Below the pieces are notes generated by a model that searched no databases, was not told the origin of the DNA, and saw nothing but the letters and a program-made list of their open reading frames with translations. A stretch of 64,000 nt of DNA, taken from NCBI GenBank assembly GCA_022823725.1, contig JAJEHL010000017.1:1-64000 (forward strand), given 5' to 3'. Shown one piece after another: positions 25,999 to 44,962 of this stretch. The DNA comes from Candidatus Latescibacterota bacterium (lineage in GTDB: Bacteria > Latescibacterota > UBA2968). The number at the start of each line of letters is the position of its first letter. Within the stretch, counting starts at the first letter, position 1. The translations under genes were made by a program, and so were the position numbers.

Positions 25999-26047
25999 AA
26001 CACCTATCACACCCGGTGAAATTCTCCTGGAGGAGTACGCACCATGA
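25994..26047 (+). pseudogene. Truncated 5' end of a higA-like antitoxin gene
   Basis: ATG at 25994 opens [17 protein letters not shown] and then stops. This is nearly the same as the start of the full HigA at 30493 ([18 protein letters not shown]), with high nucleotide identity over about 40 bases. The rest of the gene is missing. Its TGA overlaps the lipase ATG at 26044, and its GGAGGAG (26029-26035) now serves as the lipase ribosome site. It could therefore act as a 17-residue leader ORF for the lipase. Confidence 0.7.
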
Positions 26048-26886
26048 GCCTGCCCGTCGTCCTCGCCCACGGCATCGTTCCCTTTGACGCGCTCTACCGG
26101 CCGCTCATCCAGGCGGGGCTACGCAAGTTCTTGCGCCCGCCGGACAAATGCGACTACTTTAGCGGGATCGCCAGCCACCTCGAAAACCACGGCTACACCG
26201 TCTTCGCCCCCCGCGTCCCCTTCGCCGCCGACGTGCATAAGCGCGCCCAGGTCCTGAAGCACCGCGTCGAAGTCATCCTCAAACGCACCGGAGCCGACCG
26301 CGTCCACGTAATCGCCCACAGCATGGGCGGCCTTGACACTCGCCACATGATCGTCGATTTCGACATGGCCGACCGCGTCGCAACGCTAACGACCATCGGC
26401 ACGCCGCACTGCGGCACCTCCTTCGCCGACTTCGGCCTTGCCAAAGCGGACTGGCTGATCGGCTTCACCGGCACCTTCGGCCTCAACATCGAGGGCTTCC
26501 GCGATCTCAGTACCAAAGCCACCGCCGCCTTCAACGCACGCGCGCTGAACGCCGAGGCACAAAATCCCGTCCGCTATACCACCTACGCCGCCCACCAATG
26601 CTATGAACGGATATTCACCCTGATGAAGCCGTCCTGGAAAGTCATCGCCGAGCGCGAAGGCGCCAACGACGGACTGGTGCCCGTGGCCTCGGCCGCATGG
26701 ACCGACAAGTTGGGATCGAAGACCGTGCGCCAGGAAGCCTTTCCCGTCCCCGCCGACCACCTCAACGAGTTGGCCTGGTGGGACCCGTGCGAATTGCGCG
26801 ATCCCCGACAAGCGAGAAAGTCATTCAAGGCCGAAGTTCGCGACGCCTACCTCAAAATGGTTCGCGATGCCGAGCAGATCGGTTGA
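26044..26886 (+). CDS. Alpha/beta-hydrolase, triacylglycerol-lipase-like
   Basis: This 280-residue lipase-type hydrolase has the nucleophile elbow AHSMGG (S93), probable acid D209 (GANDGLVP) and histidine H239 (PADHLNE). The N-terminal VVLAHGIVPFD carries the oxyanion-hole HG. No signal peptide is present, so it may be cytoplasmic. It is clearly richer in GC than the surrounding island genes, which hints at a separate origin. It starts inside a truncated higA and ends 11 nt before the helicase start, within the same direction. Lipases and phospholipases can be effectors in defence systems, but nothing here proves that role. Confidence 0.75.
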   Translation: MSLPVVLAHGIVPFDALYRPLIQAGLRKFLRPPDKCDYFSGIASHLENHGYTVFAPRVPFAADVHKRAQVLKHRVEVILKRTGADRVHVIAHSMGGLDTRHMIVDFDMADRVATLTTIGTPHCGTSFADFGLAKADWLIGFTGTFGLNIEGFRDLSTKATAAFNARALNAEAQNPVRYTTYAAHQCYERIFTLMKPSWKVIAEREGANDGLVPVASAAWTDKLGSKTVRQEAFPVPADHLNELAWWDPCELRDPRQARKSFKAEVRDAYLKMVRDAEQIG

Positions 26887-26902
26887 AAGGAAGCGGGATG
26901 AA
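26886..26902 (+). repeat. Internal copy of the 17-nt island repeat
   Basis: AAAGGAAGCGGGATGAA is identical to 25982-25998 and 40344-40360. Here it supplies the ribosome site and ATG of the helicase gene, as each copy does for its own downstream reading frame. Confidence 0.85.
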
Positions 26903-29900
26903 ATCACAGAATTCCCACAAGCAAAAAGACAAACATATTCTGGACAATCGCCTCAATACAGTCGTCGATTATCTGCGCGGACATCTGCCCACCGCAGAGA
27001 TATTTCGACTGGTATCGGCGTATTTCACCATTTACGGCTACGAAGCCCTGCAAAACGAATTGCACGGTATAAAGGACGTACGCTTTCTCTTTGGCGATCC
27101 GGCATCGGTTGGCGAAGTAGATCCCAGTGAAAAAACGCAAAAATCTTTTGACTTAATTGAGGGGCAGCTCTCGCCGAATCACGCATTGCAGCAAAAATAT
27201 CTCGCGCAACAATGCGACAAATGGGTACGCAGCAGAAGGGTCAAAATTCGCTCTGTCAGCAAATCCAATTTTTTGCACGGCAAAATGTACCTCACCGAAT
27301 CTGAAAACGGCGGCGCAGCAGTGGTCGGCAGTTCCAACTTTACCCGCAGCGGTTTGGGCTGTGGCACAAGTGCAAATGTGGAAATCAACCTGGCGACTGA
27401 CGACGCGGAAACACGCGCTGAACTCAGCACCTGGTTTGACGACCTGTGGGCAGACGAAGAATTGACCAGCAATGTAAAAAGGGACGTGCTGAGCGCACTG
27501 GCGCGAATCGGTCAAGACCATGCGCCAGAATTTATCTATTACAAAACGCTATACGAGTTGTTCCGCGAAGATATAGAAGATAGACAAAGGGGCGAAAGCC
27601 AACTGGAGGATACACACCTTTATGATACCCAAATTTGGAACGCGCTGTACGATTTCCAGAAAGATGGAGCCAGAAGCGTTATCGGTCGCCTGTTGCGACA
27701 CAATGGGTGTATCTTAGCCGACAGCGTGGGATTGGGAAAGACCTACACGGCGTTGGCGGTGATCAAGTTCTTTGAATTGCGAAATGAGCGGGTGCTGGTC
27801 TTATGCCCCAAAAAACTGCGCGAAAACTGGGCATTGTATCCGGCGTATAACTTCCATACCAATAATCCTTTCGACGATGATCGCTTTAGTTACACGTTGC
27901 TATCGCATACCGATTTGTCTCGCAATAGCGGAGCAGTCGGCGATATCGATCTGGCAAATTTCAACTGGCGCAATTTCGATCTGGTGGTTATCGATGAATC
28001 CCATAACTTCCGCAATGAATCAAAACCTCGCTTCGATGATGACGGCAATATTCGCCATAGCCGCTACTCGCGGTTGTTGGAAGAGGTGATCAAAGAAGGC
28101 ACCCAAACCAAAGTACTGATGCTTTCAGCCACCCCGGTCAACACCTCGCTTATCGACCTGCGCAATCAAATCTATCTGATGACCGAAAAGCGCGAGGATG
28201 TATTCCGAAACAGCTTGGGCATTGGACATATCGGAACCTTACTGGGACGGGCGCAAAAGGCGTTTAAGGCATGGGAGAATAATTCAACTACAAAAAGAGA
28301 CAAGGCCGAGTTATTAGATAACCTGGGTGCTGATTTCTTTCATTTATTGGGCGGCGTCTCCATCGCCCGCTCGCGACGACAGATCAAGACGTTTTACGCC
28401 AAGGAAATGGATAGAATCGGCAGATTTCCCACACAGCGGGCACCGGATAATGTCTATCCACAAACCGACATAAGAGGCGATCTTTCCTATCGAGATTTGG
28501 CCAATCAGATAGGTCAATTCGCCCTATCTATCTACCGCCCATCCAGCTATGTCATCAGCGCAGAGGCAAAGAAACGGCTGGCAGACGAAAAAAAACAACT
28601 GCGGTTCAATCAAGCAGACCGCGAGCGCTTTCTCATCGGCATGATGCAGACAAACTTTCTCAAACGTCTGGAGAGTTCTGCACATGCATTGACGAAAACA
28701 CTCGAGCGTACCATCGGTAAAATAAACGATCTATTAGAAAAGATAGGTCGCTACGAGCAGATGCCAGCGATACAGGATGAACAGGCCGATATACTGCCCG
28801 ACGAAGATGACGAAGACGAAGAGTTTCTCATCAATCGGGCACGCACTCCCTACCATCTGCGAGAATTGGATTTGCCTCGCTGGAAAAAAGACTTACTAAA
28901 AGACAAACAAACCCTCACAGCAGCCTGGGAAAAGGTCGGTGCTATCACACCGCCACGAGATGACAAGCTCAAAACCATTCGGGAACACATTCAGGGGAAG
29001 GCACAAAATCCGACGACTGATCAGGACGGCAAGATCAATCGCAAGATGCTGGTATTCACCACCTTTAAGGATACGGCGGAATACCTTTACGAAAATTTGA
29101 CAGAGTTGGCAAAAGAACACAGATTGAACATGGCAATGGTATCCGGCGACGCGACACGCACCACTTTCGGCACTAACGACTTCAACACCATCCTGACCAA
29201 CTTCGCCCCACATGCACGCCAGCGCAGCAACGGCGTGGCTGGAGAAATTGATCTGCTCATTGCTACCGACTGTATTTCTGAGGGACAGAATTTGCAAGAC
29301 TGCGACACCGTGCTCAACTACGACATTCACTGGAATCCCGTACGCATCATCCAGCGCTTTGGACGCATTGACCGCATTGGCAGCCGCAACCGATCCGTGC
29401 AGATGATCAACTACTGGCCCACCAAAGACATGGACGCCTATTTGCGCCTGCAAAGCCGCGTAGAAGCACGCATGGCCCTGGCAGACGCAGCTGCCAGCGG
29501 TGATGATGACCCGTTGAACGACTACGCCTTTGAAGAAGCGCAAATGGAACTCAATTTCCGCGACGAGCAATTGAAGAAATTGCGCGAAGAAGTGCTGGAC
29601 TTTGACGAGTTATCCGACGGCGTCGCCATGAGCGATTTCACCCTCGATTACTTCTTTGCCCAATTGTTGCGATATTTAGAAAAAAACAAAGCAGAACTGG
29701 AGGCAACGCCCTATGGAGCCTATGCCCTGACCGATGGCGAGAGCGATTCCACAAGGCCGGGCGTGATATTCTTCCTGCGCCAGCGTAACGCCAGCGAGGA
29801 TAAGCGAGAAAAAGTAGCCAGCCCAATTCATCCTTATTACGCCGTGTATATCCGCGATAACGGCGACATTCGCTACGGCTGTGCCAATGCCAGACAAGTG

Positions 29901-30188
29901 CTGGAATTGTTTGAATCCGCAGCCATTGGTAAAACCGAGCCACTGCAAAAACTCTGCGACCAGTTTGACCACGAAACCCAAAATGGCAAGGATATGGCCC
30001 GCTACGACCAATTGTTGGACAAGGTAATGAAGCACATCAACAGGGCAAACACCTCAACGCAGATCCAGCAACTGGGCATTCACGGTCCACGCGATATTAG
30101 ATTACCTGTAAAATCTGAAAATACTACCGACGATTTTGAGTTGGTAACATGGTTGATCATCCTCGACTCGGGGATGCACACACCATGA
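26898..30188 (+). CDS. PLD-domain SNF2-type helicase
   Basis: The 1096-residue protein starts at ATG 26898, chosen because AAAGGAAG precedes it. The N-terminal third is a phospholipase D-like nuclease domain with HGKMYL (H127) and GSSNFTRSG. Then comes an SF2/SNF2 helicase: DSVGLGKT near residue 275-283, VIDESHNF near 365, LSATPVNTS, and the C-terminal [12 protein letters not shown] and [11 protein letters not shown] motifs. Helicases of this build accompany Eco57I-type methylases in restriction-like loci, and this one lies upstream of such a methylase. DISARM and BREX core genes are absent. Its TGA overlaps the higB ATG. Confidence 0.85.
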
Positions 30189-30463
30189 TTCAATCCTTCT
30201 CAAACCGGGATACTGAAGAACTATTCTACTCCGAACACAACCGCCGTTTTGCAGCTATATCTCGCGTTGCATTGCGAAAATTGATACAAATGAATCAGGC
30301 TCGCACACTCAGCGATCTCGCTGTTCCGCCGGGTAACCGTTTGGAAGCTCTCAGGGGCAATCTGTCGGGCTTTCACTCTATCCGGATCAACGACCAATGG
30401 CGTATCGTCTTTCGGTGGACGGATTCCGGACCGGCGGAAGTAGCTATCGTTGACTATCATTGA
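30185..30463 (+). CDS. higB: HigB/RelE-type toxin
   Basis: The 92-residue product from ATG 30185 (ATGA overlap with the helicase stop) has the HigB pattern: [35 protein letters not shown] and QWRIVFRW, ending VDYH. HigB cuts mRNA on the ribosome and is blocked by HigA. The toxin gene comes first, as is usual in higBA. The start is fused to the end of the helicase gene, so toxin production follows helicase transcription. Confidence 0.85.
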
Positions 30464-30492
30464 CAACCCTTATAACCTTATATGGGGCAATC

Positions 30493-30792
30493 ATGAAAAC
30501 AACCATCACACCCGGTGAAATTCTCCTAAAAGAGTACCTCAAACCAATGGGAATTTCGCAGAATGCCATGGCCCGCGCCATCGGTGTTGCGCCACAAACA
30601 ATCAACGAAATCGTTCACGCCCGACGTTCGATCACGCCAGCCATGTCAATCCGCTTTGGCGCCTTCTTCGGCCAGTCCGACGAATTTTGGCACGGACTTC
30701 AGGTCGAGTGCAACTTTCGCAAACTGGCCAGCGAAAAGCAGCGGCTTACCGCTGGCATCCGCCCGGCTTCAACCCTGAGCCACGTAACTTAA
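30493..30792 (+). CDS. higA: HigA antitoxin, XRE-family DNA-binding protein
   Basis: This 99-residue protein starts [20 protein letters not shown] and contains a helix-turn-helix ([20 protein letters not shown]) followed by [17 protein letters not shown], the standard HigA layout. It neutralises HigB and usually represses its own promoter. It follows higB by 29 nt. A damaged relative of its first 16 codons lies at the left island border (25994). Confidence 0.88.
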
Positions 30793-30859: not shown

Positions 30860-32497
30860 ATGAACAATGATGACCTCAAAGAGCGCATTCGAGTTGCTTT
30901 GACCGATATGCCCAACAAAAATTTTCTATTGGCGACCAGAGATATTCTCGATGTTCTTGGGTATCAGAGCGAACGCATAATAGAACTCTCAGGTGATCCA
31001 GAGGACTTCATCCAGCAATTTCCTGCCCTAAACGAAAACACCAGTACTGAACAGACATTCCGCAAGCACATCCAATCCATACGCATCGTCTTTCAGATGA
31101 CAAATGATGAAATCGTCTCAGCCAATCAGCAGGCACCTGGGCTTAGGGCTACTTCCCGTAAGGAGGGCCGGCAGAAAAGCATTCTTTTCTTCGCCGTGGA
31201 ACTGAAAGAGAACAACTACGCCCCGGGGATATATGACGAATTTACGCGGGAGATCGATAAGCGAATAATCTTGCCAACCGTGGTTTTCTTCCGCGCTGGA
31301 GCACACTTGACCGTCGCGGTTATCGGTCGCCGTCCGCATAAGCTCGATGATAGCCGTGATGTGCTGGAGCGCGTCACGTCGTTGAGCAAGGATATTCCTT
31401 TAGAAAATCCGCGCCGTGCCGATATCGACATTTTTTCTCAGCTATCGCTGCCGGAGTGCGCCAAGTGGATGAAATCCAATGCCAAGCCGCACAACTGCGA
31501 AGGTTTGCTAGCTGCCTGGCTTGCCAAGCTGGACACCACAGAGCGCAACCAGAAGTTCTACCGATATACGTCCGACTGGCTTGAACAGGCGGTGTCTGAG
31601 GAGAAATTCCCAGAAGGGGAAGAGAACAATCTACGACTTTACTTCGGCGATGTCGTGGAGTCCACACCCCTTTCGAGGGAGCGCGAAGTAGAACTGGCCG
31701 ACCGCATCAAAAATGGCGATATGCGCGCCCGTGATGAAATAATCCAAGCGAATTTGCGCTTTGTCATTAACGTGGCCAAGAAATACCAGAATCGCGGGCT
31801 GCCCCTCTCGGACTTGATTAGTGCTGGCAATCTCGGGCTGATTACGGCGGCTGACCGCTTCGATGGGACGAGGGGCAACAAATTTATTACCTATGCGGTC
31901 TGGTGGATTCGACAATCCATTCTACAAACACTCGACGAGCATGTGCGTCTCGTGCGTCTCCCCGCTAACAAGGCCAGCTTGCTCAGGGAGATTTCCAAAG
32001 CCTCGTACAAACTGGGTCAAGACTGGGTTAGTGAGCCTGACATAGAAGAAATCGCCGCCGAACTCGAAGTCCCAGCCGAAGAGGACATAGAGGAAATCGC
32101 CGCCGAACTTGAAGTCCCAGCCAAGAAAATTCAAGAAACTATCCTCAGCGACTTCGACGTGTACTCGCTCGACGAATTCCTCACCGACGACAACCGCAGC
32201 TTGCTTGACACCTTGACCGATAACACGACAACTCCCCTTGACGCCGACATCTTACGCAAATCAGCGCTGACACAAGCCTTAGGGCTTCTCAAAGAACACG
32301 AATCGCGCGTTATCACGCTCTATTTTGGCCTTGATGACAACGGACCTCTAACGCTCAATGAAATCGGCGACATGATGAATCTCACGCGCGCACGCATTCA
32401 CCAAATCAGGAATCAAGCACTCAGCAAACTGCGCCGTCGAATGAGTTACCAAGCGCTGGAGACGCTGATTACATGGCCCAATAAGATAAACTATTGA
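30860..32497 (+). CDS. Fusion of a methylase-type N-terminal domain with a sigma-70 factor
   Basis: This 545-residue protein has two unrelated halves. Residues 1-252 are homologous to residues 1-252 of the downstream methylase: shared words are ELSGDxEDFIQQ, AVELK (E114-L-K116, a possible ExK nuclease motif), RRPHK and the LLAAWLxKLD region. Residues 258-530 form a full sigma-70 factor: region 1.2 with 2.1 (YFGDVVESTPLSREREVELA), region 2 (ISAGNLGLITAADRFD), region 2.4 (FITYAVWWIRQSI), a region 3 with a 15-residue internal duplication, and region 4.2 (LTRARIHQIRNQAL). The junction is in one uninterrupted frame with a ribosome site (GAGGAA) before the ATG. Polymerase binding and -10 recognition look intact, while -35 recognition differs from the house sigma (TRARIHQI against TRERIRQI). 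Confidence 0.9.
   Translation: MNNDDLKERIRVALTDMPNKNFLLATRDILDVLGYQSERIIELSGDPEDFIQQFPALNENTSTEQTFRKHIQSIRIVFQMTNDEIVSANQQAPGLRATSRKEGRQKSILFFAVELKENNYAPGIYDEFTREIDKRIILPTVVFFRAGAHLTVAVIGRRPHKLDDSRDVLERVTSLSKDIPLENPRRADIDIFSQLSLPECAKWMKSNAKPHNCEGLLAAWLAKLDTTERNQKFYRYTSDWLEQAVSEEKFPEGEENNLRLYFGDVVESTPLSREREVELADRIKNGDMRARDEIIQANLRFVINVAKKYQNRGLPLSDLISAGNLGLITAADRFDGTRGNKFITYAVWWIRQSILQTLDEHVRLVRLPANKASLLREISKASYKLGQDWVSEPDIEEIAAELEVPAEEDIEEIAAELEVPAKKIQETILSDFDVYSLDEFLTDDNRSLLDTLTDNTTTPLDADILRKSALTQALGLLKEHESRVITLYFGLDDNGPLTLNEIGDMMNLTRARIHQIRNQALSKLRRRMSYQALETLITWPNKINY
32039..32128 (+). repeat. 45-nt in-frame tandem duplication in the sigma region 3
   Basis: Two 45-nt units (32039-32083 and 32084-32128) differ at only two synonymous positions over their first 39 nt. 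They encode DIEEIAAELEVPA twice, the helix-turn element of sigma region 3. The house sigma at 44102-44962 has one such element (EEEIAEELDIPVEQV). Confidence 0.9.
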
Positions 32498-32618
32498 ACG
32501 CCGCGATTGGCGAGTGAAGTTCCGAAATGAGAATGGTCAGGCGGCTGAAATGAACTATATAGACTATTATTGATGGGAGCGGAAATATGGAAATGTATAA
32601 TCCTCTGGAGCAGGTCCA

Positions 32619-35600
32619 ATGAGTAGCGATTTTCAAACAAAGCAACAGATTTCATCGACTCTGGCAACGATACCTGATAGCGATTTTCTGGCGGCGACTA
32701 AAGATCTATTGGCAGTTCTCGGATACAGGAGCGAGCGCACGTTGGAACTTTCAGGCGATATAGAGGACTTTATCCAGCAACTTCCCGCCCCAACCCAGCA
32801 CACCAAGACCGAGCAGGATTTCTGTGAAAACGCCCAATCCGTGCGGTTCATTTTTCAGCTTACCAGCGATGAAATCGCCTCCAGCAATCAACAGATGATA
32901 AATTTTGAAGCGACCTCTTTTGACACTGGAAATACAAGTAGTTTTATCTTTTCTGCCGTAGAACTGAAGAACGACACCTACGCTCGTGGGCATTACGCGC
33001 AATTCACCCGCGAGATCAACAAGCGCTTGAGTCAACCGTCCGTCGTACTTTTCCGTACCACATCCAACCTGCTCACCCTCGCCTTTGTTCACCGCCGCCC
33101 ACACAAGCGCGATCCCAACCGCGATGTGATGGGTAGCGTGTCGCTGATCCGAGAAATTGATCCCACCGATCTACATCGCGCCCACTGGGACATCCTTGCG
33201 GAATTATCTCTGCCTAATCTTTTGTCGTGGATGGACGTCAACAACCAGTCGCACAACTTCGGTGGCTTGCTCGCCGCGTGGCTGGACAAACTGGATACCC
33301 AAGAACTCAACCGTCGATTCTACCGGGATTTGTACAACTGGTTTGAGCGTGCTATTGAAGAAGCCTCTTTCCCCAAGAATCAGACGCAAACCATATCATC
33401 AGAAGAACATGTCATTCGCCTTATTACTCGCCTGTTATTCGTCTGGTTTATCAAAGAAAAGGGGCTGATCGTCGAGGACCTGTTCATTAAGAATAAGGTT
33501 CGTGACCTGCTTAAAAATTACGACCACGAAACCGGCGACTCCTATTACCGCGCTGTGTTGCAAAACCTGTTTTTCGCTACCTTGAACACCGAAATTGACA
33601 AGCGCCGTTTCAGCAAACAGAACCGTGCCGACCACCGCAATCCTTCCGTGTACCGATACCGGGAAGAGATTGACGACCCCGACAGCCTGATCAAATTGTT
33701 CGAACAAACGCCCTTCATCAACGGCGGTCTGTTTGACTGCCTGGACAGCTTTGAAGGCGTTAAGGCAGGTGGCACTCGCATCGATTGCTTTACCGACAAT
33801 CCCGCCCAGCGCCGCGACTATTCCATCCCCAACCACCTATTTTTTGGTAAGAATGGACTGATCACCTTATTCAAAAATTACAAATTCACGGTGGAAGAGA
33901 ACACGCCCATAGAGCAAGAAGTCGCACTCGATCCCGAACTGCTCGGCAAGGTGTTTGAGAACCTACTGGCGGCTTATAATCCGGAAACGCGCGAAACAGC
34001 CCGCAAGCAAACCGGCTCCTACTATACCCCGCGCCCCGTAGTGGACTATATGGTGGAAGAGGCTTTAATGGCGTCACTGGTGGAAAAATGTCAGCCGACC
34101 GATGGCGATGTAGAGTACTGGCAAGATCGCTTGCGTTATCTGCTGGATTATGAGGACGCATTCGACGACGCTAATGATCTTTTTGAGGAAGAAGAAGCGG
34201 AAGACATTGTGCGAGCGATTGCAGACATCAAAGTTCTGGACCCCGCAGTTGGTTCTGGTGCGTTTCCCATGGGCATGCTGCACAAACTCACTCTGGCGTT
34301 GCGGCGGCTTGACCCCGGCAACAAACGCTGGGAAGCGCTACAAAAAGAACGCGCCAGAGCAAAGGCAGACGCGGCGTTTGAGACCCAAAACCAACAAGAA
34401 CGCAATGCCGAATTGCTGGAGATTAGCGAAACCTTCGAGCGGTATTCGGGAGACTTCGGTCGCAAGCTCTATCTGATCCAAAACAGCATCTTCGGCGTGG
34501 ACATTCAGCCCATCGCCTGCCAAATTGCCAAACTACGCTTTTTCATTTCGCTGGCAATTGAGCAAGAACAAGATGAGGATGCCGACAACTTCGGCATCAA
34601 GCCCCTACCAAATTTAGAGACACGCTTTGTCGCCGCAGATACGCTGATCGGTTTACAGCTATCCGAAGCCAGATCTCTACTTCAAGATGACACTGTACAG
34701 CAATTGCTAAAAGAAATTGAGGCGATTCGCGAAAAGTATTTTCTCGCAAACAACCGACCGCAAAAGCTTCAATACACCCGCCAAGAGCAAGCCTGCCGTG
34801 ACCAATTGGATCAAGCACTAACAGCACAAAAAGAAGAATGGGCAGCGCGCCAGCAACGGGACATAGACGAAAGAGTTGCCCGGATTCCCAACCCGAAAGA
34901 CAGAGAAAAATTACGTGAAAATGAACTAAAAAAGTATAGTCTGCGCGAAAAACGTTTCGACGCCAGTCTTGAGGCCGCACGGAAAGTCGCACACTGGAAA
35001 CCTTACGACCAAAACGCCAAAGCAGACTGGTTTGAGTCCGAATACATGTTCGGCATAACCCGCGGATTTGACGTGGTCATCGGGAATCCACCGTATATCC
35101 AATTACAAAAAAACAGAGGGGAATTGCGCCGCCGTTACCAATACGCTGCCTTTGAAACCTTTGCCTCCACCGGTGATATCTATCAGCTTTTTTACGAAAA
35201 AGGCTGCCAACTGCTCACACCACAACGCGGTTTGCTGTGCTACATCACTTCCAATAGCTGGCTGAGAGCAGAGTACGGCAAATCTACACGCCGTTACTTT
35301 GCCGAGCAACAGACACCATTACAATTGCTGGAAATGGGCAAGGACATTTTTGAAAATGCTATCGTTGACACCAACATACTGGTAATGCGCGGAGGCAAAA
35401 GCAATGAGACCGGCAAGGCGGTAGATATGGACCGCTTACCCGATAAAAACTTCCCGCCCTCCGAGCACCTATGGGGTACATTTCAACCACAGAGTGAAAA
35501 GCCCTGGAGCGCACTTTCAGCCATAGAGCAACCCATTATGGACAAGATGGAAACCATTGGGGTGCCGCTGAAAGAGTGGGATATATCCATTAACTACGGA

Positions 35601-36332
35601 ATTAAGACTGGTTACAACAAGGCTTTTATCATAGATAATCAGACTAAGGAGAGATTAATTATCCAAGATCCTAAATCTACTGAAATCATTAGGCCAGTGT
35701 TGCGAGGAAGGGATATTAGCCGTTACAAGGCTAACTGGGCGGGACTGTGGTTGATTGACACTCATAATGGATACGGCGATGTTTCCTCTGTTGATATTGA
35801 CGACTACCCGGCCATCAAAAGCCATCTGGACACATTCTACCTAAAACTGGAAAAACGCTACGATAAAGGCAGAACACCTTACAATCTCCGTAATTGCGCT
35901 TACCACGCAGAGTTTTCCAAAGAAAAGCTAATCTGGATGGATCTGACGGAACGAGGACGATTTGCCTATGATATGGATGGCCTGTTTTGCTTAAACACGG
36001 CATTTATTATGTCAGGTCCATCGATCAAATATTTATGTGCCCTGCTTAATTCTAATCTGATAACTTGGTTTATGAGAAACACTGCCATGAATTCTGGAAT
36101 GGGTGTTACGAGATGGATTAATGCTTCCGTAGAATCAATCCCTATTCCGAAAATCACTGCAGCAGAGCAACTTTCGTTCATCCGATTAGTTGACCGTATC
36201 TTGAAGGCTAAAGCCTCTAACCCAACAGCCGATGTTAGCGAACAGGAGGCAGAGATAGACCGGCTAGTCTACGCCCTCTACTATCTGGACGAAAAAGAAA
36301 TCGCTGCGGTAGCGGTAAAAGACAAATCCTGA
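32619..36332 (+). CDS. Eco57I-type adenine-specific DNA methylase (restriction-modification or defence)
   Basis: The 1237-residue protein has an N-terminal domain with AVELK (E115-L-K117, possible nuclease motif), shared with the sigma fusion just upstream. A helical linker follows. The N6-adenine methylase core has motif I DPAVGSGAF near residue 545 and motif IV NPPY near 823. The C-terminal TaqI-like specificity region is about 960-1220. This arrangement fits type IIG or PglX-like enzymes. Residues 1003-1011 (FIIDNQTKE) are encoded by a 27-nt sequence repeated in inverted orientation at 37105-37131 within a spare tail, so the last 226 residues look exchangeable. Ribosome site: GGAG before the ATG. 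Confidence 0.88.
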   Translation: MSSDFQTKQQISSTLATIPDSDFLAATKDLLAVLGYRSERTLELSGDIEDFIQQLPAPTQHTKTEQDFCENAQSVRFIFQLTSDEIASSNQQMINFEATSFDTGNTSSFIFSAVELKNDTYARGHYAQFTREINKRLSQPSVVLFRTTSNLLTLAFVHRRPHKRDPNRDVMGSVSLIREIDPTDLHRAHWDILAELSLPNLLSWMDVNNQSHNFGGLLAAWLDKLDTQELNRRFYRDLYNWFERAIEEASFPKNQTQTISSEEHVIRLITRLLFVWFIKEKGLIVEDLFIKNKVRDLLKNYDHETGDSYYRAVLQNLFFATLNTEIDKRRFSKQNRADHRNPSVYRYREEIDDPDSLIKLFEQTPFINGGLFDCLDSFEGVKAGGTRIDCFTDNPAQRRDYSIPNHLFFGKNGLITLFKNYKFTVEENTPIEQEVALDPELLGKVFENLLAAYNPETRETARKQTGSYYTPRPVVDYMVEEALMASLVEKCQPTDGDVEYWQDRLRYLLDYEDAFDDANDLFEEEEAEDIVRAIADIKVLDPAVGSGAFPMGMLHKLTLALRRLDPGNKRWEALQKERARAKADAAFETQNQQERNAELLEISETFERYSGDFGRKLYLIQNSIFGVDIQPIACQIAKLRFFISLAIEQEQDEDADNFGIKPLPNLETRFVAADTLIGLQLSEARSLLQDDTVQQLLKEIEAIREKYFLANNRPQKLQYTRQEQACRDQLDQALTAQKEEWAARQQRDIDERVARIPNPKDREKLRENELKKYSLREKRFDASLEAARKVAHWKPYDQNAKADWFESEYMFGITRGFDVVIGNPPYIQLQKNRGELRRRYQYAAFETFASTGDIYQLFYEKGCQLLTPQRGLLCYITSNSWLRAEYGKSTRRYFAEQQTPLQLLEMGKDIFENAIVDTNILVMRGGKSNETGKAVDMDRLPDKNFPPSEHLWGTFQPQSEKPWSALSAIEQPIMDKMETIGVPLKEWDISINYGIKTGYNKAFIIDNQTKERLIIQDPKSTEIIRPVLRGRDISRYKANWAGLWLIDTHNGYGDVSSVDIDDYPAIKSHLDTFYLKLEKRYDKGRTPYNLRNCAYHAEFSKEKLIWMDLTERGRFAYDMDGLFCLNTAFIMSGPSIKYLCALLNSNLITWFMRNTAMNSGMGVTRWINASVESIPIPKITAAEQLSFIRLVDRILKAKASNPTADVSEQEAEIDRLVYALYYLDEKEIAAVAVKDKS
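35625..35651 (+). repeat. 27-nt inverted repeat, copy in the active methylase
   Basis: Perfect inverted match to 37105-37131. It encodes FIIDNQTKE in frame, while the flanking sequence differs much more between the two copies. Probable crossover site for tail exchange. Confidence 0.9.
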
Positions 36333-36390
36333 GTAAATTAAATGCTAAATAGTGTAAAAACATAGTTTTGTGAGCTGTCATGTGGATTGT

Positions 36391-37185
36391 CTATAGTAAA
36401 GGTTGCTCTTCTACTGCGGAGATCTCCGCCCCCGTCAGTCCATACAATTCGTAAACCCGCAGGTCAATCTCGGCTTCTGTAGCTGATACATCGGCATTCG
36501 AATCAGTCGCTCTAGCCGTCAGGATATGCTCCATTAGTTCGATAAACCTGTACTGATCCCCCGCTGATAATTTGGGGATGGGAATTGTTTCAACATACGC
36601 TTTTTTCCATTGAAATGTTCCCATACCCGATGTTGGTGCTGTCTTTTGGAGAAACCAGCGTATCAAATTGGTATTCAGTAATACGCAGAGATATTTGATG
36701 CAGTCACCAGTCATCATAAATGATGAGTCCAAACAATATAGCCCCCTGTCATCGTAGGCAAAGCGTCCATTATCAACCAGTGTGATCCACACCAATTTTT
36801 CTTTTTCAAATTCTGCGTGGTAAGCGCAAGTATCCTGTAATTCGTACCAAGCATGTGTAGTCTTTTTTCTGGACTTTGTGCCATTCGAAAGGGTTCTACC
36901 CGACTGTTCTAACCTCGCTTTGCCAAAAGACAGCAAATGCCTTTTCACTTCTGGATAATCATCAATGTTGAGCCCAATAGCAGGAAATGTTGCTATCAGC
37001 CAGAGTTTTGTACTTTCCCAATCAGCTTGATACCTCTGAATATCCCTCCCTCTTAAAACTGGCTTAATAACCTCAGCCGACTTCGGATCTCTTTCAATCA
37101 GTGCCTCCTTAGTCTGATTATCTATGATAAAGGCCTGATTATACCCGGTTAAAACTCCTCGGTAAATGGATAAACTCCTTGATAA
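36391..37185 (-). pseudogene. Silent, inverted alternative specificity tail of the methylase
   Basis: Read on the minus strand, an open frame runs from about 37185 to a stop at 36391 with no start or catalytic domain. It begins SIYRGVLTGYNQAFIIDNQ and has TKEALIERDPKSAEVIKPVL, RGRDIQRYQADW and IPIPKLSAGDQYRFIELM, all homologous to the end of the active methylase but clearly diverged. Beyond the shared FIIDNQTKE it gives 237 residues. The frame is intact, so it is a donor cassette rather than a decayed gene. A second identical patch of 18 nt exists (35894-35911 against 36812-36829). An ATG at 36948 could in principle yield a 185-residue fragment. Confidence 0.85.
37105..37131 (-). repeat. 27-nt inverted repeat, copy in the silent tail
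   Basis: Exact reverse complement of 35625-35651, in the same reading frame (FIIDNQTKE). Inversion of 35652-37104 would place the silent tail on the active gene. Confidence 0.9.
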
Positions 37186-37259
37186 TATTTTTTATCTCTG
37201 ACTATTTAGATCTACAGTTTCAATTTCATACAGTCCAAATCAATTCTCAGGAGTTCAAA

Positions 37260-38252
37260 ATGACATCATCTTCTCAGTCTGATGCAATCAAAATAGACTT
37301 TTATAGCGAGGTGGTTTCATCCGCTTTAGCGGACAATACCCGTATCGCCTATGACAAAGGTTGGTCTTGTTTTAGCGATTATTGTGACTCTCAAAATATC
37401 TGCTCCTTATCTGCCACGCCAAAAGACATTGCTAATTTTATTATTGAACTGGCGACACGTCCCAGACCGTCAAGTGGAAAAATACTTTCTATGGGTACGG
37501 TAGTTTTATATCGAAGCGCAATCAATAGGAAATATGTTGAGTTAGGAATCCCATCTCCCACTAACCATCCTAATGTCAATGCCGTTGTGAAAGGACTTGC
37601 GCGGCTTAGAGGCACAGCCAGCCGTCAGGTGAAGGCGTTAAGAGAGTATCACATCAAAAAAATGCTGAACATATGCGACCTGACGGCAAACCAAGCAGGG
37701 AAAAAATTAATCTGCCTACGGGACGCCGCAATTATTGCTATTGGATTCGCTGGCGCACTTAGGCGATCAGAGATATGTGGACTTACAACTGATGATATTG
37801 AAATCATACCATCCCCAGATGGTCTAAAAAAAATGTTTCTCTATATTCGCAAATCAAAGACGGATCAAGAAGGAAAAGGGCATAAAATCGCTATACCGGG
37901 GGGTAAATACTTAAAACCTATAAAAAGGCTGCAAGATTGGTTGGAGGCATCAGGAATTACTGATGGACCAGTATTCCAGACAATGAGGCGTGGAGGCACA
38001 CTGCGAGGCAAATCGATGCACCATTCGGATATTCCCCGCTTGGTTAAATATTATGCAAAATTAAGCGGCTTAGACGAGAAGGAGATATCAGGACATTCAT
38101 TAAGGGCTGGTTTTGTTACCAGCGCGGCTTGTCACAATGCTCGCTTAGATAAAATAATGGAAATCACCAGGCATACAAATCCCTCAACTGTAATGAAATA
38201 CATCCGCGATGCCGATTCGTTCACAGATCATGCCGGTGAAAAATTTTTGTAG
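37260..38252 (+). CDS. Tyrosine recombinase (phage-integrase family)
   Basis: This 330-residue recombinase starts at ATG 37260, after CAGGAG. The N-terminal core-binding domain (ADNTRIAYDKGWSCF) is followed by the catalytic domain with R168 (GALRRSEIC), a lysine in IRKSKTDQ, the HSLR box (H279, R282), H305 (TRHTN) and Y314 (MKYIRDAD), so it should be active. It lies directly beside the invertible cassette and is read away from it. In BREX loci, recombinases next to inverted pglX copies drive phase variation, which suggests the same job here. It may instead be the integrase of the island. Confidence 0.88.
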   Translation: MTSSSQSDAIKIDFYSEVVSSALADNTRIAYDKGWSCFSDYCDSQNICSLSATPKDIANFIIELATRPRPSSGKILSMGTVVLYRSAINRKYVELGIPSPTNHPNVNAVVKGLARLRGTASRQVKALREYHIKKMLNICDLTANQAGKKLICLRDAAIIAIGFAGALRRSEICGLTTDDIEIIPSPDGLKKMFLYIRKSKTDQEGKGHKIAIPGGKYLKPIKRLQDWLEASGITDGPVFQTMRRGGTLRGKSMHHSDIPRLVKYYAKLSGLDEKEISGHSLRAGFVTSAACHNARLDKIMEITRHTNPSTVMKYIRDADSFTDHAGEKFL

Positions 38253-42746: not shown

Positions 42747-44120
42747 GTGAACTTAAAAGGCCAGCGCGTCACAGTAATGGGATTGGGATTATTTGGCGGG
42801 GGCGTGGGAGCAGTGCGTTTTCTGCTACGCAAAGGCGCGGTGGTGACGGTGACGGACTTGCGCCCTGAAAAAGACCTGCGCGATTCGGTGTGCGCCCTGA
42901 AAGGATTGCCCATCGCCTTTGTGCTGGGGAGGCACGAAGAAATAGATTTCCAGAACGCAGATTTAATTGTCGCCAACCCCGCAGTGCCCCGGTCATCGCG
43001 ATACTTGAAAATCGCAGAATCTGTGGGCGTGCCCATCACATCGGAAATCTGTCTATTTGTCGAACGCTGTCCCGCGCCCATAATCGGCGTAACGGGCAGC
43101 AGTGGCAAAACGACGACAACCTCGCTCATAGGAGAAATGCTCAAGCGAAAGGACGAACGCACGCGAATCGGTGGCAATATTGGCGGATCGTTACTGGATG
43201 AATTAGACCTGCTACAAGCCGATATACCCATCGTACTGGAATTATCGAGCTTTCAACTCGACCGATTGGGGGATTTGCCGTGGAGTCCCCACATCGCCGT
43301 TATAACCAATTTTGCGCCAAATCACATCGACATACACGGATCTCTACAAGCGTATCGAAAAGCCAAGCAGCAAATCGTCAGACACCAGACAAAAGGCGAT
43401 TGGACAATTGTCAACGGGGAAGATGCCGAAGTGTCTCGTTGGGCGGGCGCAGGTCAGCGGGTGGTATTTGCCGTTGAAGGCGAAGGGGATGTATTTGTTC
43501 GCGAGGGAAAAATTCAACACACAATCGGTGGCGATGTGAGATCCATCTGTTCTGTAGATACCATATCTTTGCGCGGTCGGCACAACCTCGCCAACGCACT
43601 ATCAGCCACGGGTGCAGCGGTCATAAGCGGCGTACCTGAAGAAAATATCGCCGACGTATTGCAGACATTTCAGGGAGTACCGCACAGATTGGAGCAGGTC
43701 GCAGAAGTGAACGGCGTTCTCTATGTGAACGATTCAATAGCCACGAGTCCCGATCGCACGCGAACAGCACTCATGGCTTATGACAAGCCGATCGTGCTGA
43801 TAGCAGGCGGCTACGATAAAGGCATTGCTTATGACAATTTGGGAGTAGCGATAGCGGAAAAAGTCACACATCTGATTGTGATGGGCGACACTGGGGACGC
43901 GATTGCGGCACCAGCAAAAGGGAAAACCAATATTCACCGCGTAGAAAATTTGGAAGAAGCGATGGGTTGCGCGACAGGTCTCGCACAAGCTGGCGATGTG
44001 GTATTGCTATCGCCAGCATCGGCGAGCTACGACCAGTTTCGCAATTTTGAAGAGCGCGGTGAGCGGTTTCGAGAATGCGTGGAGAAATTGAGGTGTAATA
44101 TTCACGCATCTTCTGCATAG
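42747..44120 (+). CDS. murD: UDP-N-acetylmuramoyl-L-alanine:D-glutamate ligase MurD
   Basis: MurD adds D-glutamate in cytoplasmic peptidoglycan precursor synthesis. From GTG 42747 (GGAGA six nt upstream) the protein has 457 residues, the normal length. Motifs: VMGLGLFGGGVG, ATP loop GVTGSSGKTTTTSLIG, ELSSFQLD (typical of MurD), APNHIDIHGS, GRHNLANALS, and NDSIATSPDRT with AGGYDKG at the end. Not next to other mur genes of the main pathway. Its 3' end overlaps the convergent sigma gene by 19 nt. Confidence 0.92.
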   Translation: MNLKGQRVTVMGLGLFGGGVGAVRFLLRKGAVVTVTDLRPEKDLRDSVCALKGLPIAFVLGRHEEIDFQNADLIVANPAVPRSSRYLKIAESVGVPITSEICLFVERCPAPIIGVTGSSGKTTTTSLIGEMLKRKDERTRIGGNIGGSLLDELDLLQADIPIVLELSSFQLDRLGDLPWSPHIAVITNFAPNHIDIHGSLQAYRKAKQQIVRHQTKGDWTIVNGEDAEVSRWAGAGQRVVFAVEGEGDVFVREGKIQHTIGGDVRSICSVDTISLRGRHNLANALSATGAAVISGVPEENIADVLQTFQGVPHRLEQVAEVNGVLYVNDSIATSPDRTRTALMAYDKPIVLIAGGYDKGIAYDNLGVAIAEKVTHLIVMGDTGDAIAAPAKGKTNIHRVENLEEAMGCATGLAQAGDVVLLSPASASYDQFRNFEERGERFRECVEKLRCNIHASSA

Positions 44121-44962
44121 GGCATCAGCTTTCGTCCGCGCGTGGGATGGCGCAATTTTCGGAGTGCTTTTTCTTTTATTTGACGAATCCTTTCGCGCGT
44201 CAGGCGAAATTGCTTACCAATTTCTTCGAGTGTCATCTCCGTGCCGCCGCCCAATCCAAAATAGAGTCGGATGACTTTTTGCTCGCGTTCGTCAAGGGTA
44301 CTCAAAGCACTTGAGATCTCATCTCTCAGGGTATTTCGCAGCGTCATTGCATCCGGCGGCTCTTGTGAGTTGTCGGGCATCATTTCAAGAAGGCTATTTT
44401 CTCCATCGCCAAGAGACGTATCGAGAGACAATGTGCGCTGCCCACTCGTGAGAATATCCGTAACCTGCTCCACCGGAATATCCAATTCTTCGGCAATTTC
44501 TTCTTCCGCAGTGCGCGTCGAAGGCTCTTGCTTCTGGTTGTTTTTACAGCGAGATATACGCCTGAGCAATTCCACGCGATTTAGTGGAAGGCGCACGACC
44601 CTGGCGTGTTCCGCCAGAGTTTGTAAAATAGATTGGCGAATCCACCAAACAGCATAAGAGATAAACTTAAACCCTCTCGTCTCGTCAAAACGCTCTGCCG
44701 CTGTGATCAAACCGACGTTTCCCGCGCTGATGAGATCCACGAGAGGCACACCCTGATTTTGATATTCGTAGGCCACAGTGATCACAAAGCGCAGATTGGC
44801 TTCAATGAGTTTTGCGCGCGCTTTCTGATCGCCCTCGCGAATGCGAACAGCGAGTTCAACTTCCTCTGCGGAAGACAGAGGTTGAGACGAAGCTACATCT
44901 TCGAGGTAGTGGTGCAGTGCATCTTTGGGGACACCTTTGGCTGATGTAGGCAAAGCAATCAC
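44102..44962 (-). CDS. Sigma-70 family RNA polymerase sigma factor
   Basis: This 286-residue sigma factor has regions 1.2 (YLEDVASSQPLSSAEEVELA), 2 (ISAGNVGLITAAERFDETRG), 2.4 (FISYAVWWIRQSI), 3 and 4.2 (LTRERIRQIKEKAL). It is RpoD/SigA-like but lacks a long region 1.1, so it is either a compact primary factor or a group 2 factor. GTG start at 44962. The island fusion protein at 30860 has a related sigma part, which makes this a useful internal reference. Confidence 0.88.
   Translation of the reverse strand: MIALPTSAKGVPKDALHHYLEDVASSQPLSSAEEVELAVRIREGDQKARAKLIEANLRFVITVAYEYQNQGVPLVDLISAGNVGLITAAERFDETRGFKFISYAVWWIRQSILQTLAEHARVVRLPLNRVELLRRISRCKNNQKQEPSTRTAEEEIAEELDIPVEQVTDILTSGQRTLSLDTSLGDGENSLLEMMPDNSQEPPDAMTLRNTLRDEISSALSTLDEREQKVIRLYFGLGGGTEMTLEEIGKQFRLTRERIRQIKEKALRKLRHPTRGRKLMPYAEDA

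Follow-up and report, generated by a model that had tools for sequence, protein, structure and literature searches.

Genes of the locus and architecture of the fusion

The analysed window is a stretch of 64,000 nucleotides of Latescibacterota DNA, and the genes from the helicase to the methylase lie on its forward strand. The first gene of the system (26898–30188) encodes an HKD (PLD) nuclease–SNF2 helicase of 1096 amino acids, which was recognised by Pfam and by the PADLOC model C3a139 HKD+Snf2 (5e-113). It is followed by a HigB/HigA-type toxin–antitoxin pair assigned by Pfam (30149–30792), by the gene of the N-sigma fusion (30860–32497), by the scar of a second HigBA pair (32498–32621), and by the gene of an Eco57I-type N6-adenine methylase (32619–36332; Pfam and PADLOC). 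The methylase has the same N-domain as the fusion and a TaqI_C specificity domain, and its translation contains the motifs DPAVGSG and NPPY. In the window, a lipase/hydrolase-like gene (26044–26886) separates the helicase from the host gene upstream of it; this gene is missing from two of the other loci with the fusion (G002 and G004).

The fusion is encoded by an open, clean frame of 545 residues. Residues 1–252 (30860–31615) derive from a methylase N-terminus and, as the original prediction had noticed from the letters of the window, match that of the adjacent methylase; the identity is 51% (E 1e-73). The C-terminal part (31616–32497), which had been described there as a complete sigma factor, indeed carries Sigma70 regions r1.2, r2, r3, and r4 within residues 258–525, each above its Pfam cut-off, and aligns with bacterial SigA/RpoD chains in the PDB (2e-46). 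With regions 1.2–4 above the Pfam cut-offs, the fusion belongs to the sigma-70 family as an RpoD-like member.

The N-domain matched no Pfam model above the cut-off. Its match to DUF4391 reached 20.5 bits against a cut-off of 29.9, which leaves it outside this family as defined, and a weak DUF4391 match recurred in 33 of the 42 N-domain members (6e-7 at best). The AlphaFold2 model of the domain is of fair confidence (pLDDT 83.6), but no similar structure was found among PDB or viral structures; no catalytic motif is evident, and the ExK-like 'VELK' is not conserved. In the model of the full-length fusion (pTM 0.46), the position of the N-domain relative to the sigma half is too poorly defined to be read. 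The prediction had assigned domains of this kind to Eco57I/PglX enzymes at large, which proved too broad: the N-domain was found in one methylase subfamily, paired with HKD-SNF2 helicases. A standalone DUF4391 gene beside the helicase, which would suggest docking, was not found in the relatives.

The scar in front of the methylase consists of a toxin C-terminus followed by the first antitoxin codons, and its stop overlaps the methylase start. It is conserved between distant copies in four genomes, with a mean column identity of 84% over the four loci. The toxin remnant matches only toxins of the RelE/ParE family, and the short peptides of the scar gave no match in Pfam. The 121-bp gap had also been considered as a conserved promoter; this was rejected, since the gap is the scar. 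Meanwhile, the HigBA pair between the helicase and the fusion is confined to the genus of the window, being found in G004 and as HigA alone in G002; it is absent from G027, G016, G017, and G040.

Distribution and origin of the fusion

Seven copies of the fusion were found (in the window, G002, G004, G016, G017, G027, and G040), all of them in Latescibacterota. The near-copies come from metagenome-assembled genomes labelled Latescibacterota or Gemmatimonadetes/Gemmatimonadota; the kinship table assigns them to the same class as the window, from which we infer that the whole group is Latescibacterota, and we name it so. Five of the six further copies are intact, so that with the window six genomes, from three families, carry an unbroken frame, and the G004 copy is truncated in its sigma half and accompanied by a broken helicase. 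Because this architecture recurs six more times in other genomes, an assembly or recombination artefact was ruled out, and the fusion of a methylase N-domain with an RpoD-like sigma is real and conserved.

The same HKD-SNF2 helicase type precedes the fusion in 7/7 copies, and the methylase gene lies 3' of it in all six copies in which the contig continues (the G004 contig ends). The predicted setting, an Eco57I-type methylase with an SNF2-PLD helicase, holds for the copies found. The prediction had also named what would speak against it, namely a lack of other fusions, an artefact at 31610–31640, or a dN/dS near 1, and none of these was observed. In G027 and G040, the fusion can start at a second in-frame ATG, where it overlaps the end of the helicase gene, including the stop, by 4 nt, and this position is the one held by the methylase gene in the loci without a sigma.

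The fusion is dispensable, as a locus with the same helicase subtype (G008b) lacks it and has an apparent MazEF-like pair in its slot. Other accessory modules found in this slot are toxin–antitoxin pairs or an AIPR protein. In G002, an AIPR family protein is encoded between HigA and the fusion (L023:6568–8259); AIPR proteins belong also to MZA-like defence systems.

No sigma was present at the 25 related loci of other phyla (Chloroflexota, Pseudomonadota, Thermodesulfobacteriota, Stahlbacteria, and others), 23 of which showed the helicase within the sequence covered. The basic unit outside the phylum is the helicase and the methylase without a sigma. Among 31 loci from a genome scan by short patterns, which could miss distant fusions, none outside Latescibacterota carried one, and none was found in plasmids, phages, or viral contigs.

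In phylogenetic trees, the fused N-domains form one clade (100/99) within the methylase N-domains of Latescibacterota, and the fused sigma halves likewise group together (99/99), nested in the solo sigmas of another family (f4); the G040 copy branches first in both. As judged from these trees, the fusion arose once, the N-domain coming from a Latescibacterota methylase and the sigma half deriving from one of the solo sigmas that occur across family f4. The closest solo relatives of the sigma half are those of f4 (about 450 bits), the solo sigma of the window itself reaches 324 bits, and the genome of the window holds no solo counterpart as close as those of f4. By this comparison, the sigma half is foreign to the genus of the window.

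The synonymous divergence between the window and G027 is 0.46/0.48 for the fusion, 1.61 for the helicase, and 1.5–1.9 for the methylase. Because the dS of the fusion lies so far below those of its neighbours, the gene appears to have passed between lineages and to have been kept, and the sequences indicate that its transfer into the genus of the window was a later event. Since the HigBA scar is similarly conserved, the fusion and the scar appear to have moved together.

A solo RpoD-like sigma is encoded 12 kb away on the reverse strand (44102–44962), and a near-identical copy lies downstream of the G002 locus. It is not the parent of the fused sigma.

Proposed role and selective constraint

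The best, though tentative, explanation is that N-sigma is a regulatory subunit of a restriction-modification-like system composed of the HKD-nuclease/SNF2 helicase and the Eco57I-type adenine methylase, its methylase-derived domain linking sigma activity to the helicase/methylase complex. The N-domain would dock on the partner of the methylase N-domain, most simply the helicase, and the docked domain would gate or localise the attached RpoD-like sigma. The promoters read by the fused sigma would then switch depending on whether the complex is free or occupied, and N-sigma would act like a control protein of restriction-modification systems, supplying a sigma rather than a repressor or activator. 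Because N-sigma occupies the place of the methylase and carries its domain, it may compete with, or report on, the docking of the methylase on the helicase. From the gene order, it is plausible that the shared domain binds the partner of the methylase. The helicase of the same type beside all seven copies, the methylase adjoining wherever the contig continues, and the helicase-overlapping methylase place held by the fusion in G027 and G040 argue for the regulatory-subunit reading, and so do the single-clade trees and the transfer with retention. The locus without the fusion, G008b, counts against it.

The N-domain alignment also speaks against this reading. Four residues that are invariant in 35/35 methylase N-domains (N133, H185, H188, and L229) are replaced in 6–7 of the seven fused ones, indicating that some methylase-specific function was lost in the fused domain. 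The G040 copy retains three of them (N133, H188, and L229), so it looks like an intermediate.

The sigma half has changed as well. A tandem 15-residue repeat of region 3 (EIAAELEVPAEE) occurs once in the solo relatives and at least twice in most fused forms, with two copies in the window and several in G040. Region 2.4 is near-identical to that of a solo f4 sigma (e.g., L078), and as the −35 helix is mostly kept, the fused sigma may read the promoters of the solo sigma. A promoter scan of the locus gave no enrichment and did no better than shuffles, which weighs against a regulatory subunit. In region 4.2, the window copy has TRARIHQI instead of TRERIRQI; an intact TRERIRQ is needed for ordinary promoter recognition, not for membership in the sigma-70 family. 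On the window branch, region 4 has accumulated five amino-acid changes against a single silent one. Two of the five, E511A and R514H, fall in the helix that in RpoD contacts the −35 element, so recognition of this element by the window copy may be shifting or disappearing.

These substitutions count against the regulatory-subunit reading and would be explained if the sigma half were a handle on RNA polymerase, with the N-domain bringing the helicase-nuclease to the places where transcription starts on invading phage or plasmid DNA and promoter specificity of minor importance. Such a tether would account for the −35-helix residues lost in the window and for the milder change of region 2 (two amino-acid and four silent changes on the window branch), and it fits the weaker constraint on the sigma half. 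However, TRERIRQ is intact in the other five copies with region 4, which favours a regulatory subunit instead, and a precedent is not known to us; we consider a tether unlikely.

The dN/dS values (Nei–Gojobori) were 0.20–0.36 for the N-domain and 0.19–0.31 for the sigma half, showing that both halves are under purifying selection. Being well below 1 in both halves, these values indicate that the fusion family is functional by this measure, which again agrees with a regulatory subunit. Meanwhile, the solo parent sigmas gave 0.01–0.05, a constraint several-fold stronger than that on the fused sigma half and one more point against this reading. The original prediction that both halves look conserved is thus borne out for the family but needs correcting for the window copy, given the 5:1 ratio of amino-acid to silent changes in its region 4.

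This ratio, the weaker constraint relative to the parent sigma, the truncated fusion and broken helicase of G004, and the absence of the fusion from G008b are what would be seen if a chance fusion had been carried along by recombination at the operon and were decaying, having no selected function. The dN/dS of both halves, however, stays well below 1 over long distances, and frames are intact in six genomes of three families, with transfer between the families, which makes such a by-product improbable. We find it still more doubtful that the N-domain silences the sigma and, once the defence complex has engaged DNA, sets it free to compete with the house sigma, so that the cell or its prophages are arrested: the foreign sigma half in the genus of the window (about 450 bits to f4 against 324 to its own) and the toxin–antitoxin pairs or AIPR protein in the same slot elsewhere would suit such an abortive switch, but it is compatible with the regulatory-subunit reading and hard to tell apart from it.

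Taken further, the regulatory-subunit reading describes a restriction-modification-like defence with its own sigma, aimed by a duplicate of the docking domain of the methylase, in which the output of RNA polymerase depends on whether the restriction complex is occupied or engaged. We hold this fuller version to be possible but somewhat unlikely. If true, it would represent a new class of link from DNA restriction to transcription, and it hints that the N-domain, a poorly understood part of the widespread HKD-SNF2/Eco57I system, is a docking module.

Relation to known systems and other elements of the locus

The regulation of restriction-modification systems is known to proceed via repressors, C proteins, antisense RNA, and promoter methylation. 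A sigma wearing the domain of the methylase itself would be a different principle of control. The control (C) proteins are small regulators encoded together with restriction and modification genes; unlike N-sigma, they are helix-turn-helix DNA binders and not sigma factors. The solo f4 RpoD-like sigmas are closest to the sigma half and share the −35 helix with most fused copies, but they have no N-domain, carry one copy of the region-3 repeat, and are under much stronger constraint. The neighbouring methylase resembles Type IIG/Eco57I/PglX enzymes in its Eco57I catalytic and TaqI_C domains, whereas the fusion has the N-domain only, without the catalytic domain.

Defence-associated sigma factors already exist. 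As a sigma encoded within a defence operon, MzaA from the MZA (mzaABCDE) anti-phage system (PMC9523054) comes closest. MzaA, too, is a long protein that ends in an RpoD-like sigma, and its models in PADLOC and NCBIfam recognise the sigma half of the fusion. However, only the sigma part aligns (positions 430–659 of the 683 of the PADLOC profile), and the NCBIfam model NF041931 gave 195.9 bits, from the sigma part only, against a cut-off of 800, so the fusion is not an MzaA by this model. Its neighbours are a helicase and a methylase instead of recognised MZA proteins, and no mzaBCDE partner was seen among the profiled neighbours in the window.

The Type-2 BREX-related (BR) systems share with the window an HKD-nuclease/SNF2 helicase and an N6-methylase; in their description, a DUF499 ATPase accompanies these two, as does DUF3780 in 98% (PMC12839542). 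Neither DUF499 nor DUF3780 was matched by the window proteins scanned, which are a subset of the neighbouring ORFs, and a text search of the same paper (PMC12839542) returned no sigma fusion. In text searches of the open-access literature, no paper on the joining of a sigma to a methylase domain turned up, and this fusion suggests an unstudied tie between gene expression and the state of a restriction-type defence.

Downstream of the fusion, the segment 38416–39585 strongly matches the PADLOC candidate defence family PDC-S54 (1e-151). The segments 35584–37172 and 37179–38252 include a second methylase specificity domain in the opposite orientation (36391–36948, 58% identity), bounded by inverted arms of 156 nt (71%), whose core, about 27 identical bases, preserves the reading frame. 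The domain and its arms adjoin a tyrosine recombinase, and the arrangement looks like an invertible, phase-variable specificity cassette. A similar layout, with arms of 51 nt, is present at the locus L033 (G001).
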